From IMG/VR virus record IMGVR_UViG_3300021964_000704, positions 1-20,637 of that record: 20,637 nucleotides of DNA. The stretch is one strand, 5' to 3'. The stretch's first letter is position 1. Each line of letters opens with the position of its first letter. This document shows, piece by piece, positions 11,360-17,192 of this stretch. The position numbers were made by a program, and so were the translations under genes. The DNA is from a virus. The notes under the pieces are model-generated. The model did no database searches. It saw only the letters and a program-made list of their open reading frames with translations, and was not told the origin of the DNA.

Positions 11360-12223
11360 CTACTCGATTGAAGAATCAAAAGATCCTCTTACGCCAGCCA
11401 AGTCTTGTAACTCACCTGTTCCGTATACAGCAGTTCCCATGATGTCAAAACCTCTCAATGTAACCTCTCTCTGAGATTCGATCTTGATGTCTTGCATCAT
11501 TGCTAAACCAATTGCTTCTTTGTGGAAGATACCGCAACCATAGTCACCTACAGTTGAACCATCTGCTAATGGAACTAAAGATGATTGGTATACTGGAACC
11601 CCACCTAGTGTGCCCATGAAGCCATTTTTCAAAGCATCATTACCAACTGCTGAAGCCGGAGCCGCAAAAGTTGAAGTAAGAGTTGATGCGATGTCGTAAG
11701 CGATGTTCGGGTGTAACACGATCGCACAATCGTTTGATGTGTCGTAACCTTGAGATCTGATCTTAGCGATTGCTTGGAATAACATAGCCGGTGTCGCTGT
11801 TGGACTTGCACCTTCGCCTACTCCGCCAACCACTTGTGAGAAGTTGTTGAAGTTAGCCATTAGGTCAGAGTCCATTTTTCTTGCTATCGCTTCACCAAAT
11901 AATTTTCCAATGTCCGCAACAACGTTAGACGCTGATGCTTGGATTGAAAGATCTGAAACAGTTGCTCTGATACCTACTTCTGATACTGTTAGAGCCGCTG
12001 TTGATGGAGTGATTGCTGTTGCTGTTGGAGCCGTTGCTTCTGTTAAACCCGCCGCCGTTTGTTTTGCGTAGATCGGCACGTTCACTGTTAATCCACTTGA
12101 AGGTGCTAATGTGTAGTTCTTAACTAGACCTTTCATGATAGATTTCTCAGATGCTTGGTATAACGCCTCTGCAACGATTGATGGCAATAAATTTGCCAGT
12201 GTTGTTGTGTTTGTTAGAGCCAT
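11360..12223 (-). CDS. Major capsid protein, HK97-fold type, 287 aa
   Basis: Forms the icosahedral shell. Evidence: follows the scaffold gene, precedes terminator and connector, and has capsid-like order. An N-terminal helical part (LLPSIVAEALYQASEKSIM) leads to VNVPIYAKQTAAGLTEATAP. Then AITPSTAALTVSEVGIRATVSD and IGKLFGEAIARKMDSDLMA (the spine helix) follow. The A-domain-like end includes VLHPNIAYDIAS, GTLGGVPVYQSSLVP, YGCGIFHKEAIGLAMMQDIK and REVTLRGFDIMGTAVYGTGEL. No extra N-terminal delta domain is evident. Codon choice looks different from neighbouring genes (many TTA/CTA Leu, AGA Arg, T- or A-ending Ala/Thr), as expected for the most highly made protein. AAGGAG precedes the ATG. Confidence 0.92.
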   Translation of the reverse strand: MALTNTTTLANLLPSIVAEALYQASEKSIMKGLVKNYTLAPSSGLTVNVPIYAKQTAAGLTEATAPTATAITPSTAALTVSEVGIRATVSDLSIQASASNVVADIGKLFGEAIARKMDSDLMANFNNFSQVVGGVGEGASPTATPAMLFQAIAKIRSQGYDTSNDCAIVLHPNIAYDIASTLTSTFAAPASAVGNDALKNGFMGTLGGVPVYQSSLVPLADGSTVGDYGCGIFHKEAIGLAMMQDIKIESQREVTLRGFDIMGTAVYGTGELQDLAGVRGSFDSSIE

Positions 12224-12265: not shown

Positions 12266-12973
12266 CTACAAGCCCATTGTTTTACGATGTTCTGCGTAGA
12301 GCTTCCTGTGTTCTGGATTGTTGAAGTCCAGTTTCTCAACATCTATCTGTTTCGCACCAGCCGTGCCAGTGTTCGATGTAGAACCACCTCCCGGTTGTCC
12401 TGCTGTAACAAAGTGTGGGTTTGATTGTAAGAATTCTTCTACCAACCCGTCTATGTTCAGAGGATCACCATTGTCAGTGTATCTGGTCTGCCCTGTTTTA
12501 AGATCAATGACCTCAACCTCTCCCGTGTCTGACATCTTGATGTTCTCCCTGACCAGTCTCGCGACTTGTTCTGGATTGATCGCTTTCTTGGTTGACGCGG
12601 CATTTATCAATGCTCCATCCACCTTGATCTTTGTCAGTTCAGAAGTGAGTGATGAGATCTTGCTGTTAAACTTCTCAGCATTCTCTTTCAACAGTTTCTC
12701 GAACTCCGACTTCTCCTGTGCCTTGGATATCTTCTCAGATTCCTCTTTGGCAGTGAGAGTTTTGTAGTGCTCAACGTCTATACCTTCAAACTTCTTTGCG
12801 AGTTTGGCTTCTGCTTTTCTTCTTACTTCAGCCGCCACAGCATCAAGTTCCGCCTGCGTATAGACTTTCGCGGGTTGATTGTCCGCTGTGTCCTGTGTGG
12901 TGTTTGTGTTAGAGACTTGATCTGGTGCCACAGTGGCAGTTTGACCCGTGTCTTGCGATGTTTCTTGACTCAT
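12266..12973 (-). CDS. Capsid scaffolding protein, 235 aa
   Basis: Guides capsid assembly and is then lost from the head. Evidence: directly upstream of the capsid gene and very hydrophilic. The N-terminus is Gln/Thr/Asp-rich and disordered (1-35). Long charged coiled-coil helices follow (38-125, AELDAVAAEVRRKAEAKLAK and KSEFEKLLKENAEKF). A folded part INPEQVARLVRENIKMSD (132-149) with VEVIDLKTGQTRYTDN is seen in DUF4355-like scaffolds. A Gly/Ser linker (193-206) leads to a short basic C-terminal helix (FNNPEHRKLYAEHRKTMGL), similar in place to the capsid-binding tail of other scaffolds. ATG has AAGGAGG nine bases upstream. No protease domain is fused to it. Confidence 0.88.
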   Translation of the reverse strand: MSQETSQDTGQTATVAPDQVSNTNTTQDTADNQPAKVYTQAELDAVAAEVRRKAEAKLAKKFEGIDVEHYKTLTAKEESEKISKAQEKSEFEKLLKENAEKFNSKISSLTSELTKIKVDGALINAASTKKAINPEQVARLVRENIKMSDTGEVEVIDLKTGQTRYTDNGDPLNIDGLVEEFLQSNPHFVTAGQPGGGSTSNTGTAGAKQIDVEKLDFNNPEHRKLYAEHRKTMGL

Positions 12974-13034: not shown

Positions 13035-13505
13035 TTAGTAGAACATACTACTATCAGGGTCAAGACCCCAAGACAGATAATAATCAGTTTTTCGTAATCG
13101 TTGTTGTGCATTTTTCAATTTATTTAGATCCTGCACCATTATCAACGGACATTTCTGGAAACTGAAAGACACGCCTTTGTGTAGGCCGTCATTGTCAGGA
13201 TGGTCATACAGGATGGCACTGTTGGGATTGTTCTTGTGAGAACGTCTGCATATGCTGGCCAGTTTACGCTCTGTTATCGGTTCGTTGAAATAGAAAATAA
13301 CAATATCGAGATTAAGCACATTAAAAAGATCGCAACACTGATCAATCTGAGCCAACACATTTGGCGTCGCAGGCGTGATCTGTATCTTGCGATCTTCGAA
13401 TGTTCTTTTTGCAAACGGACAGACAGGCTGTTTACTCGCCTTATGAGTTTTGATAACAACCTGTCTGATCCATTTCTCAATGTCTTTGCTATCTACGTCT
13501 GCCAC
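13035..13505 (-). CDS. Accessory protein with CPFAK motif (DUF1415-like N-terminus), 156 aa
   Basis: The start of the protein (IEKWIRQVVIKT, then PVCPFAKRTFEDRKIQI; C29-K33) resembles the opening of DUF1415 proteins, where a helix W-x-x-x-V-I precedes L-C-P-F-A-K. The later part has FNVLNLDIVIFYFNEPITE, SAILYDHPDNDGLHKG, and a basic helix LNKLKNAQQRLRKTDYYLSWG. No enzyme is assigned. GTG 13505 has no clear ribosome-binding site. An in-frame CTG at 13523-13521 lies 7 bases after AAAGGA and would add AEENP and adjoining residues, so the true start may be a rare CTG. Position between portal and scaffold is where many phages keep a capsid protease, but no protease motif is visible. Confidence 0.75.
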   Translation of the reverse strand: MADVDSKDIEKWIRQVVIKTHKASKQPVCPFAKRTFEDRKIQITPATPNVLAQIDQCCDLFNVLNLDIVIFYFNEPITERKLASICRRSHKNNPNSAILYDHPDNDGLHKGVSFSFQKCPLIMVQDLNKLKNAQQRLRKTDYYLSWGLDPDSSMFY

Positions 13506-13525: not shown

Positions 13526-13825
13526 TTAGATCCTTTGTTCTTTTTCTTTCTCTTGTCCATCGTGATCCTCCTTGATCCTGTGCTTGGTTGGGAACTTCTC
13601 GGGTCTGCCCTCGTTCCTTGATGGGGCATACAAGTCCAGCAGTTCAACGCCCCTGGCGTGAGCCACCCTCTTCAACAACACACAGGCCTTCCTGGCACGT
13701 GTGGCGTTGGTCTTGCTTGGATGCTTCATCAATTTCTCGTAGTGTGTGAAGTAGTCGAGGCACAACTGTTTCATCTGCCTGTGCCTGGCCGTCTCCTCTG
13801 GTAATCTGTATAGTTTCCTAATCAT
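13526..13825 (-). CDS. Small basic helical protein, 99 aa
   Basis: Rich in Arg, Lys and His with a helical core: RQMKQLCLDYFTHYEKLM (about 17-34), then a conserved-looking NATRARKACVLLKRVAHARG (about 40-59) and ELLDLYAPSRNEGRP. The end is highly charged and disordered (DHDGQEKEKEQRI). It resembles short phage proteins of unknown function with an R-A-R-K-A-hhh repeat, from memory only. ATG overlaps the stop of the 57-aa gene upstream by four bases (ATGA). It could bind nucleic acid or a head protein; I do not assign a function. Confidence 0.75.
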   Translation of the reverse strand: MIRKLYRLPEETARHRQMKQLCLDYFTHYEKLMKHPSKTNATRARKACVLLKRVAHARGVELLDLYAPSRNEGRPEKFPTKHRIKEDHDGQEKEKEQRI

Positions 13826-13995
13826 AATCGGTAGTGTGAGTTGACACTGATCCTTATATCACTGTCACAGGTCAAGTCACGCTCTTCCCTATAGGGTTTG
13901 ACGTGCGATTTTTTTATTTTGTCAAACAATTCATACTTGTCATGGAACTCCGTGTCCTGTAGGTCAAATGTCGTGGCACCTTTGTCAAATTGCAT
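13822..13995 (-). CDS. Small hypothetical protein, 57 aa
   Basis: Short gene fitting exactly between two others: ATG at 13995 overlaps the SpeD-like stop as TGATG, and its TGA overlaps the next start as ATGA. No other frame fills this 170-base gap. The protein is acidic at the start (MQFDKGATTFDLQDTEFHDK), then KYELFDKIKKSHVKPYREER and LTCDSDIRISVNSHYRL. One cysteine, no membrane segment. Unknown family. The double stop/start overlap is the main evidence that it is real. Confidence 0.75.
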   Translation of the reverse strand: MQFDKGATTFDLQDTEFHDKYELFDKIKKSHVKPYREERDLTCDSDIRISVNSHYRL

Positions 13996-14429
13996 CACGT
14001 GTTCTCCGCTTGTAGATTGTATTGTGCGGCATCTAACACACTGAACTGATTATCAGCCAGTGTTGTGAATCCCTTTTCTCTGTCTAGGTATTTGTAATCC
14101 AATCTCTCGATGTCGAATTGTGCCAACCAAGTGAACACGTCCTTTATCCTGAAGTCCTTACAACTGTAGACGTCCAACTGTATCACGCCGGTCTCTGACC
14201 AAGAATGGAAAGTTATTGAACTGGTGGTGATTATGGCCGTTGAACTCCAACCCAGGTTGCCAGTGTCAAGGCAGTAGGCCGAGTGTGGGCCTGACAGGAT
14301 CTCCATGTCTATCTTTCTGATGAGGCTGGCGATCTCGGCGTCCATACGCTCTTGTGTGAAATCGTTGAGCGGTGGCGAATTGACTTCGGCCCTAATCAGT
14401 AGGTGTTTGTGTTGGAGATGTGGATGCAT
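13995..14429 (-). CDS. speD: S-adenosylmethionine decarboxylase homologue (SpeD-like), 144 aa
   Basis: Bacterial SpeD is a self-cleaving, pyruvoyl-dependent enzyme that makes decarboxylated AdoMet for spermidine synthesis. Here TTSSITFHSWSETG then LDVYSC (68-90) aligns with the family core (ESH-I-S-I-H-T-W-P-E, then D-x-F-T-C). S70, H75 and C90 have the same spacing (5 and 15) as Ser63, His68 and Cys83 of the Thermotoga maritima enzyme. Length 144 fits the short bacterial form, and it starts with HKHLLIRAEV as expected. Deviations: the Glu and His around the cleavage Ser are Thr69 and Ser71, and the Pro of TWPE is Ser78. Homology is strong. AdoMet specificity is not certain, since related homologues are reported to decarboxylate arginine or ornithine. 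ATG lies inside the portal gene end (38-base overlap). Confidence 0.75.
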   Translation of the reverse strand: MHPHLQHKHLLIRAEVNSPPLNDFTQERMDAEIASLIRKIDMEILSGPHSAYCLDTGNLGWSSTAIITTSSITFHSWSETGVIQLDVYSCKDFRIKDVFTWLAQFDIERLDYKYLDREKGFTTLADNQFSVLDAAQYNLQAENT

Positions 14430-15951
14430 TGTTCAAATTTAATAACTCTTGTTTAGCCGCGGTTATGTCTGCTTGACTGATTTCTGAATGCATCTGTAGG
14501 ATCTGCTGATCCGTGTAAGATTGCATTATCATCTCTTGAATGTGTTGTGATCTGTTCGCAGGAGTGGTGACTGGATGTTGCATCTCCTGTATTTCTTCAT
14601 CGTCGTCTGCCAGCAGTTCGACTATCTTGTTGTCCAACATTGTTTTGACCTTTGGTGTCGCCGTCGCACTGTCTCTCTGGGCCACTGCGGCTTTCTGTAT
14701 GATCTCCATGTCGATGTTCTTGTCTTTGATGTGGAACGCTGTGGGATATTTTATTTCACCATCCCAGGCCTGTCCTTGCCATAGTCCAAACAGTCTGAAG
14801 ATGTTCTCTTCCGACAGTTCGAGATTCTTGGCCTTCTCTGATAGTTTGGCGTCCAAGAGCATGTATTCTGATTGCATGGCTAGACCACTCATCTGTCTTG
14901 TCTCAACTGCCCTGATCGCTCCAAGGTGTGCCATCCTGTCGATGGACTTGACTGTGTTCTCCATCGTCTCTAGGATTGCTTGTAGGTTACCACCTGATGG
15001 CTGAAGCAAGAACGGCTTAAGGTTACCGTCAAGTTCTTCTGGCATGGTTATTATGGCACCGGCACCTGCTGATGCCTGCACTGAATTCGTTTTGACCAGT
15101 GATGGGTGATTGGTCAGTCTTATCAACTGCTCCGCCTCACTGTTCAGTGAGTGAAGGAATCTCTGACTCTGTGCGATGTCGTTGATGTCTGAAACACCTA
15201 TGCCCCTGATTGGTCCCCTGTTGGCATATACCCAAACAGCAGGCACCTTGCCCAGCGTGTTTGGTCTCTCATTGATCAATTGTAAATTTTGTTTCTCGTC
15301 CGTGTTGAATGCTTCCAGTGTGATCTTGTCTTTGGTCCAAGTCCTCACGTAAAATTCTGCTGACTGTTCCCACATTCTGTCATCCTCTTCAAGGAACTTG
15401 ACCATCTCTAATTCGTAGTGCCCATTTGGCTGTCGGATGAATTTCCAATCTAACACGTTCTCTGGTGTGTAGATAGTCACGTATGGTCTGATGTCTTGTG
15501 CCAATTCTTCGGCCCTTGTGCCCACCTGCATTTCAGGTCTGTCAACGAGAACCACGCAGTGTCCGTAGATAGAACTCTGTAGATTGGCCTCCCTCATGAA
15601 TGAATCCCAACTCCTTCCTTCCAGATCGCAATCTTTCAAGAAATTTTCCATCTCTGGTGTGTTCTGTAACCAACCGAAATCCCTCTTTGGTTCTTGCCTG
15701 TATAGGAAACTGTTGTAGATGTGACAAACGCTCCTACAATGATTGTCTACGGCAGATTGATCCAACCTGTTGAAGTATTCGCTGTCTGACTCATATTGAT
15801 ATTTTGTTAGGTATTGTCCCTGTTTGTATTCGTTGCCACCTAGGTAACTTCTCTTTAGGAATCTGTATTGGTCAATGTAGTTGTCGTAATCTTTGTGTGT
15901 GGGCAATCCTTTGACACTGCCGTTGATTGTTGTTTGGTGGTAGTTGGCCAT
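14392..15951 (-). CDS. Portal protein, 519 aa
   Basis: Forms the dodecameric ring at the vertex through which DNA is packaged and exits. Evidence: directly downstream of the large terminase and upstream of head genes, with portal-like length. Landmarks are YDNYIDQYRFLKRSYLGG and EYFNRLDQSAVDNHCRSVCHI near the start. The wing or stem has RPYVTIYTPENVLDWKF (about 152-168) and LGKVPAVWVYANRG. The helical stem has SDINDIAQSQRFLHSLNSEAEQ followed by a basic-to-polar ATTP-rich segment. LGAIRAVETRQMSGLAMQSEY is like SPP1/DUF4055-type portals. The C-terminal tail is Thr/Pro-rich (STSPTQTPTD) and disordered. TAATG joins it to terL. Confidence 0.9.
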   Translation of the reverse strand: MANYHQTTINGSVKGLPTHKDYDNYIDQYRFLKRSYLGGNEYKQGQYLTKYQYESDSEYFNRLDQSAVDNHCRSVCHIYNSFLYRQEPKRDFGWLQNTPEMENFLKDCDLEGRSWDSFMREANLQSSIYGHCVVLVDRPEMQVGTRAEELAQDIRPYVTIYTPENVLDWKFIRQPNGHYELEMVKFLEEDDRMWEQSAEFYVRTWTKDKITLEAFNTDEKQNLQLINERPNTLGKVPAVWVYANRGPIRGIGVSDINDIAQSQRFLHSLNSEAEQLIRLTNHPSLVKTNSVQASAGAGAIITMPEELDGNLKPFLLQPSGGNLQAILETMENTVKSIDRMAHLGAIRAVETRQMSGLAMQSEYMLLDAKLSEKAKNLELSEENIFRLFGLWQGQAWDGEIKYPTAFHIKDKNIDMEIIQKAAVAQRDSATATPKVKTMLDNKIVELLADDDEEIQEMQHPVTTPANRSQHIQEMIMQSYTDQQILQMHSEISQADITAAKQELLNLNNASTSPTQTPTD

Positions 15952-17192
15952 TATCTTATAACTCCTGTTTTGACTGCAAATCTTTCGTTTGGTGTTGGCT
16001 CATACAAGGTCTTGATTGGGTATAAAAATGATATTTTGTAACCAAGACTGTCGGTGAAATGATCATATCCTTGTGTTTTATCAGGCAAAGTTGTTCCCTC
16101 TTTGTAAATCTGTTTCGCTATGCTATTTAACATATTCTTGCACTTGGGGTCAATATAGATATCTCGCTTGCCTGACGCTGAACACAACTTGGCATTGACA
16201 GAATTGATCCTGTCCCTGACTGCCATGTGCCTCGGCATCACTTTGCAAATGAAGCCCGCGTTCTGAAGGATTGATAGGTCCGTCCTGCCTCCGGCTGATG
16301 TCTTCCTGGCCCTGGACGCTGGATCCGGATACACGAATATCTTCTTGCCTGGATATCTACGATGTATCTCCTGACACATCTCGTCAGTGTTCGAACTCCA
16401 GATCTGTATCTCATCAAAGATGTTTACCACATCATTATGTATGTAACTGACCACTGCACTCATCGGGTCAAGGTTGAAATCCATTCCGATGTGTATTATG
16501 TTGTTGTCCAACGGTGGTATGATCTTCTTGACGTTTTCTTTCATGCTAAAATTATAGATCACCCCAGAATAGGATTCCCACGTGGCCTCATATTCTTGCC
16601 TATAGGTCTTGCTGTCGAGGTCACTTTTGGCCTGTTCTATCTCCTGCTGGTCAACCCAACCACCCTGCACTGTGGTGTATTGATAACTTGACCATTCTTC
16701 CTCGGTCTGATCCTGACCCCGCTGGTAGAGATCATAGAACCAGTTCATTCCTTTTGGTGTGCCAATGAACATGGCCTTGCCTTTGGTGTCTGACAGCGTG
16801 GGACGGAGAACTTCGGTGAATGCACTCTCTTGGATATCAGCACACTCATCTAAGACTAGAAAATTTATACCAACGCCACGCAGGGAGTCAGGATTGTCAG
16901 CACCCCTTAGACAGATCCTTGATCCGTTTTTTAATATCACTGTGAGTTCTGCCTCGTTGATGTTCTTGACCCAACGTAGGTCTTTCAATATTTTTTTAAG
17001 TTTGATCCATGCTATCTGTTTGGCCTGTCTGTATGAAGGTGCCACATACCAACAAACCTTGCCTGGATCCCGGGCGTAGTAGCAAAGTTCTCTGATGGCC
17101 AGTGTGGTCTTGCCTACCCTTCTTCCCGCCACACAGACACGGAACCTGGCCGGGTCATCCGCAACTGCACGTTGTGGTCCTGATAGTTTCAT
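15951..17192 (-). CDS. terL: Terminase large subunit, 413 aa
   Basis: Packaging ATPase and DNA-cleaving nuclease. Walker A VAGRRVGKTT is at 21-30, Walker B FLVLDE at 111-116 (catalytic Glu116) and the coupling motif IGTPKG at 143-148. RNase H-like nuclease residues follow: D238 in GMDFN, D290 in VYPDP and D378 or D381 in HFTDSLGY. All parts are intact, and 413 aa is short but complete for the family. The Q-motif region is brief (PQRAVADDP). ATG lies 33 bases after the terS stop, with no strong AAGGAG but with an A/T-rich leader. Confidence 0.95.
   Translation of the reverse strand: MKLSGPQRAVADDPARFRVCVAGRRVGKTTLAIRELCYYARDPGKVCWYVAPSYRQAKQIAWIKLKKILKDLRWVKNINEAELTVILKNGSRICLRGADNPDSLRGVGINFLVLDECADIQESAFTEVLRPTLSDTKGKAMFIGTPKGMNWFYDLYQRGQDQTEEEWSSYQYTTVQGGWVDQQEIEQAKSDLDSKTYRQEYEATWESYSGVIYNFSMKENVKKIIPPLDNNIIHIGMDFNLDPMSAVVSYIHNDVVNIFDEIQIWSSNTDEMCQEIHRRYPGKKIFVYPDPASRARKTSAGGRTDLSILQNAGFICKVMPRHMAVRDRINSVNAKLCSASGKRDIYIDPKCKNMLNSIAKQIYKEGTTLPDKTQGYDHFTDSLGYKISFLYPIKTLYEPTPNERFAVKTGVIR

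Follow-up and report, generated by a model that had tools for sequence, protein, structure and literature searches.

We describe a gene of the S-adenosylmethionine (AdoMet) decarboxylase family, SpeD, that lies between the portal and capsid genes of a virus and recurs in structural gene blocks of marine phages. Judged from its sequence, the protein is in all likelihood a SpeD-derived pyruvoyl-dependent decarboxylase of changed specificity, for which arginine would be the most likely substrate, ornithine a less likely one and AdoMet none, and whose product would enter the host polyamine pathway. Such enzymes have been described from phages before; what is mainly new is the conserved and recurrent place of the gene in structural gene blocks. 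In the open literature that we searched we found no report of SpeD beside portal or capsid genes. Our analysis extends the set of phage enzymes that channel arginine or ornithine of the host into polyamines by a large branch found in head operons (194 relatives in viral contigs, the best 80 of them examined). It also suggests that many marine-phage genes labelled 'AdoMet decarboxylase' are mislabelled, and it points to a sister group in marine Gammaproteobacteria that resembles their missing arginine decarboxylase.

Gene layout of the window

The window, by which we mean the whole stretch of DNA analysed, is the virus record IMGVR_UViG_3300021964_000704 (20,637 bases, GC content 47%). This GC content argues against a SAR11 host, since the compared pelagiphage loci have about 31-34%. 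Terminase, portal, the SpeD ORF, three small unknown genes, scaffold, major capsid and tail genes follow one another on the minus strand (Table 1). The initial annotation had placed the gene between portal and capsid genes and overlapping the former, and this holds: the last 38 bp of the portal gene overlap the start of SpeD, and portal, scaffold and capsid are all called by PHROG or Pfam. SpeD begins a tight gene run that ends with scaffold and capsid; the nearest structural gene downstream is the scaffold, four genes on, with the capsid after it. Because the SpeD stop codon overlaps the start of orf57 (TGATG) and the orf57 stop overlaps the start of orf99 (ATGA), these three genes look translationally coupled, and the gene overlaps suggest that SpeD would be co-transcribed with the head genes.

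We found no PHROG match for orf57. The gene, which starts on the SpeD stop codon, carries the motif FDKGATTFDLQD; a homologue lies beside SpeD in a phage with different portal and tail genes (L027:3039-3287). Pfam matches of neighbouring genes to an SPP1 portal and to DUF1415 were below cut-off and were not used.

Table 1. The SpeD-family gene and its neighbours in the window
Feature	Position	Strand	Product	Evidence or remark
SpeD-family protein	13995..14429	(-)	144 aa; predicted pyruvoyl-dependent arginine/ornithine decarboxylase	Pfam/PHROG, structure, residue counts, tree, dN/dS
SpeD residues			predicted self-cleavage between Thr69 and Ser70; putative catalytic His75, Cys90	family markers Thr69, Gln84, Tyr88
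Portal protein	14392..15951	(-)	519 aa	PHROG 145 portal, E=3.5e-65; 46.5% identity to pelagiphage HTVC111P portal
orf57	13822..13995	(-)	57 aa; no known family	sequence, tblastn, motif search
orf99	13526..13825	(-)	unknown; conserved downstream neighbour	overlaps orf57 (ATGA)
orf156	13035..13505	(-)	unknown (PHROG 10325)	downstream neighbour conserved in many relatives
Head scaffolding protein	12266..12973	(-)		PHROG 206, E=1e-14
Major capsid protein	11360..12223	(-)		Pfam PF25209, E=3e-9; PHROG 267
Terminase large subunit	15951..17192	(-)	start of head block	Pfam PF03237, E=4e-20; PHROG 2

Homology to SpeD

The ORF is intact and matches Pfam PF02675 AdoMet_dc (E=3.3e-11, 43.9 bits against a cut-off of 25) as well as PHROG 3125 'S-adenosylmethionine decarboxylase' (E=4e-10). 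Its predicted structure (pLDDT 88, pTM 0.82; model from 46 related sequences) matched best, among solved structures, the AdoMet decarboxylases (AdoMetDCs) of T. maritima and A. aeolicus (E about 1e-6 to 1e-5, probability 1.00). The top match was the T. maritima enzyme 1vr7/1tlu (E=2.4e-6, probability 1.00, TM 0.76-0.77 by target length), at an identity of about 17-18% in the structural alignment. With the portal overlap left out, dN/dS against close relatives was 0.05-0.14; the protein is therefore under purifying selection. Profile, structure and phylogeny thus make the ORF a SpeD homologue at the family level, as first proposed, and two of the checks named in the initial annotation, a profile search and a structure overlay, returned this family, so that the refuting outcome of no match by profile or structure did not occur.

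The residues on which the first proposal was built (Ser70, His75 and Cys90, with Thr69 and Ser71 on either side of the serine) are present in the sequence. Their spacing does equal that of Ser63-His68-Cys83 in T. maritima, but this is no family trait: from His to Cys it is 15 in the window and T. maritima, whereas HTVC201P and the majority of family members have 17. With this loop longer by two residues in those proteins, the equality is uninformative and was dropped as evidence of likeness to the T. maritima enzyme.

Residues and tree set the protein apart from AdoMetDCs

At the level of NCBIfam TIGR03330 the match is weak, 30.7 bits against an equivalog cut-off of 75.65. We aligned 72 family members (30 from window-type phage contigs, 5 from pelagiphage-type phages and 37 from cellular assemblies) with 8 AdoMetDC-type sequences. 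The equivalents of Ser70, His75 and Cys90 are kept in 72/72 family sequences. The residue before the cleavage serine is Thr in all 72 family rows and Glu in 8/8 AdoMetDC rows (Glu62 in T. maritima, Thr69 in the window). Two further replacements, Ala77 to Gln and Phe81 to Tyr in T. maritima numbering (Gln84 and Tyr88 in the window), are likewise found in 72/72. The proline after His-x-Trp, Pro71, which we take here as the one that distinguishes AdoMetDC from arginine decarboxylase, is lost in all 72 and kept in 7/8 AdoMetDCs; the window has Ser78. This marker is not absolute, because the validated AdoMetDC of phage YS40 also lacks it. A second conserved proline, Pro51, is absent from the window protein too. 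Ser71, standing where AdoMetDC has His64, is special to the window subclade (24/72).

In the tree the AdoMetDCs (97/87) lie across a long branch from a group made up of the window clade (97/99), the proven arginine decarboxylase of phage HTVC201P and the cellular relatives. Because its columns are few and several of its branches long, we use the tree only for the split between AdoMetDCs and this family, and we read from it no branching order inside the non-AdoMetDC group, where HTVC201P is the one enzyme of proven activity. For the proven ornithine decarboxylases of a Lake Baikal phage and of freshwater phages no record was found in the phage collection searched, and the SpeH1 protein of Microcystis phage MaAM05, tried as a proxy for an ornithine decarboxylase, sat on a long branch at an unsure position.

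Residues, TIGR03330 score and tree together led us to discard a true AdoMetDC as a candidate, and on these grounds the window protein is probably not one. A bona fide enzyme feeding spermidine synthesis, as in cyanophages, would explain the profile and fold matches to the AdoMetDC family; cyanophage SpeDs are common, that of S-PM2 is functional (PMC9992855), and family genes adjoin speE in some bacteria. We nevertheless regard this reading as very improbable, given a score far under the equivalog cut-off, the replacement of Glu62, His64 and Pro71 and the position apart from AdoMetDCs in the tree. Moreover, three cellular bins hold a separate SpeD of bona fide type beside the family member, and a strong SpeE match is missing from several of the bins that carry the family gene.

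Arginine or ornithine as substrate

HTVC201P, to which the window protein is 37% identical, is the one group member with assay data that we found. Its enzyme decarboxylates arginine, not ornithine or lysine, and restored no spermidine in speD-deleted E. coli (PMC9992855). A decarboxylase of changed specificity was the better of the two ideas in the initial annotation. It is well supported by this arginine decarboxylase without AdoMetDC activity (PMC9992855), by the loss of the AdoMetDC signature residues and by the arginine decarboxylase gap in cellular relatives described below.

A point against arginine is that specificity is labile in this group, and identity to the assayed arginine decarboxylase is just 37%. 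The same mechanism might act on L-ornithine (SpeDC-type), yielding putrescine directly and requiring no additional host enzyme. Among the phage AdoMetDC homologues that resemble HTVC201P, five are ornithine decarboxylases, and some phage homologues have both activities (PMC9992855); a published tree places HTVC201P itself within the ornithine decarboxylase (SpeDC) clade, which is recognised by diagnostic Gln, Thr, Phe and Tyr residues (PMC10407285). Judged by residue type, the window protein has candidates for all four (Gln84, Thr69, Phe74 and Tyr88). Yet the corresponding region of HTVC201P shows these residue types as well, and that enzyme has no ornithine activity. The cellular relatives, too, occur in genomes with AguA/AguB-like enzymes, which are meaningful only downstream of agmatine. 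Because the cellular members read as missing arginine decarboxylases, and so bracket the window protein together with HTVC201P, arginine is the favoured substrate, about twice as probable as ornithine; we hold ornithine to be possible, if rather unlikely.

Cellular relatives and an apparent gap in the polyamine pathway

Cellular relatives came from one genome scan, and their genomes were then searched. In marine gammaproteobacterial bins of about 1 Mb (L088, L089, L099, L117 and similar small genomes) the family gene is divergent from speE, and most of them have an aguA-like/aguB-like pair elsewhere. Ten of these bins hold the two genes next to each other, a pair that would turn agmatine into putrescine; most aguA/aguB matches fall short of the NCBIfam cut-offs, and the bins are incomplete genomes. 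In the same ten bins LysA is the only match to the PLP-type ornithine/arginine decarboxylase family, and neither PF01276 nor PvlArgDC proteins were found there. With no other arginine or ornithine decarboxylase detected, the family gene of these Gammaproteobacteria is likely an unrecognised arginine decarboxylase. For the cellular family members as a whole, the simplest reading of the gene content would be that they are the missing arginine decarboxylases.

A separate weak SpeD match, in a reading frame about 250 aa long that may encode a class 1a AdoMetDC, is present in six of the ten bins as well. In three bins of Deltaproteobacteria (L106, L110, L111) a family SpeD, a SpeD of bona fide type and SpeE stand in a row. 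In a Parcubacteria bin (L092) and a Pacearchaeota bin (L107) the family SpeD lies among phage-type replication genes, in the latter with a clamp-loader-like AAA protein by Pfam, so both look like misbinned phage contigs. Plasmids were searched for SpeD homologues as well, and none were found.

A recurrent place in the head operon

Among the best 80 of the 194 relatives from the IMG/VR scan, a homologous portal gene lies just upstream of SpeD in 53 of the 66 loci with enough flank, and a homologous scaffold or capsid gene just downstream in 47/61; 50 loci have both. Many of the compared loci are close copies, so these counts are not independent. A second phage group (L023-L027, L048, L052, L061, L064, L066-L068) has a different portal, and no homologue of the window portal was found in it. 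In those of its loci that we examined, SpeD of the same subclade lies upstream of T7-like tail genes and of a major head protein unlike that of the window; in L027 SpeD is followed by an orf57 homologue (73%). The placement noticed in the window is hence real and recurrent, with about 50 related contigs and a second phage group.

The position might be no more than a hot spot where cargo genes insert, functionally unrelated to packaging, and we lean towards this view. HTVC111P, HTVC112P and DSL-LC06, cultured relatives of the portal, are without SpeD and have other, unrelated genes in the slot, while SpeD homologues of pelagiphages adjoin DNA-replication and ribonucleotide reductase genes and those of L079-type phages also lie in replication/nucleotide modules; the slot thus behaves as a cargo position. 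Nor does SpeD identity track its neighbours: at L009:3792-4223 SpeD is 90% identical to that of the window, the portal 57% and the terminase 64%, so the gene has been exchanged between diverged phages. Against a mere hot spot, two phage groups that differ in their portal and tail genes both carry this one SpeD subclade among their structural genes, a hint that late expression may matter. This reading concerns placement and is compatible with a decarboxylase of changed specificity. The conserved place between portal and scaffold, and the replaced residues on both sides of the cleavage serine, would also fit a SpeD-fold protein that has lost catalysis, or moonlights, and serves in head assembly. 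We find this highly doubtful, since Ser, His and Cys are kept in 72/72 sequences from many phages and bacteria, and HTVC201P, the one assayed relative, whose gene lies outside a head operon, is enzymatically active. Cultured relatives of the same portal do without the gene, which makes a core role in assembly unlikely.

Proposed mechanism and role

We picture the protein as a small pyruvoyl-dependent decarboxylase that descends from AdoMet decarboxylase and has the SpeD class 1b fold. On the model of T. maritima AdoMetDC and HTVC201P, its proenzyme would cleave itself between Thr69 and Ser70; the serine would become a pyruvoyl group, to which the alpha-amine of the substrate would be joined as a Schiff base, and His75 and Cys90 may assist processing and catalysis. 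The Thr69 and Ser71 flanks make cleavage at Ser70 less certain, although the Thr is shared with the active HTVC201P enzyme. L-arginine would most likely be turned into agmatine, or less likely L-ornithine into putrescine; AdoMet would not be used. During infection the product might feed the host polyamine pathway and meet needs such as translation, replication or the neutralisation of packaged DNA. The analysis itself shows the fold, the catalytic triad, the lost AdoMetDC signature residues, the place in the tree, purifying selection and the conserved gene order; self-cleavage, substrate, expression timing and physiological role are given here as we infer them.

Phage JG004 depends on the spermidine synthesis of its host, for which the authors of that work propose a role in balancing charge as DNA is packaged (PMC3120641). 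A DNA-packaging role for the SpeD product, the other idea in the initial annotation, is possible. A stronger form would be that the head-operon branch became fixed in at least two unrelated marine phage groups because late, local agmatine or putrescine neutralises DNA during packaging, with orf57 as a partner; this we consider improbable. Should late, capsid-linked timing prove functional, the old question whether phages make polyamines for packaging their DNA could be approached directly.

Comparison with known systems

The closest known system is the pyruvoyl-dependent arginine decarboxylase of HTVC201P (AXH71538; Li et al. 2023, PMC9992855). It has the fold family and the Ser/His/Cys triad in common with the window protein; both have Thr before the Ser, the Gln and Tyr markers and no Pro after His-x-Trp, and both belong to marine phages. 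HTVC201P differs in a His after the cleavage Ser (Ser71 in the window), in a His-Cys loop longer by two residues and in having no C-terminal extension. Its gene lies between exonuclease-side genes and ribonucleotide reductase, whereas that of the window lies in the head block. The 'S-adenosylmethionine decarboxylase' proteins of HTVC115P, HTVC103P and HTVC104P are the closest annotated phage proteins (46% identity) and share the family markers; we found no published activity for them. Unlike the window gene, that of HTVC115P is in a replication/ribonucleotide reductase region. SpeDA and SpeDC of bacteria and archaea (PMC10407285) are SpeD homologues that occur without or beside a true SpeD and have conserved processing residues, as does the window protein, whose substrate is predicted. 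T. maritima AdoMetDC (TM0655; 1tlu, 1vr7) shares the fold, and its Ser63/His68/Cys83 are the equivalents of the window triad; its Glu62, His64, Pro71 and Ala77 are all replaced.

Two annotated phage genomes gave further observations. In HTVC109P (L131, AXN54088.1) the annotated SpeD start, locus base 400, lies about 100 bases inside the homologous region, which runs from base 301, so the annotated gene start looks wrong. Microcystis phage MaAM05 (L130, MW495066.1) has two SpeD homologues followed by speE. The second of them, SpeH1, has no Pro after His-x-aromatic and a divergent pocket region, and for these reasons may be another enzyme of changed specificity.
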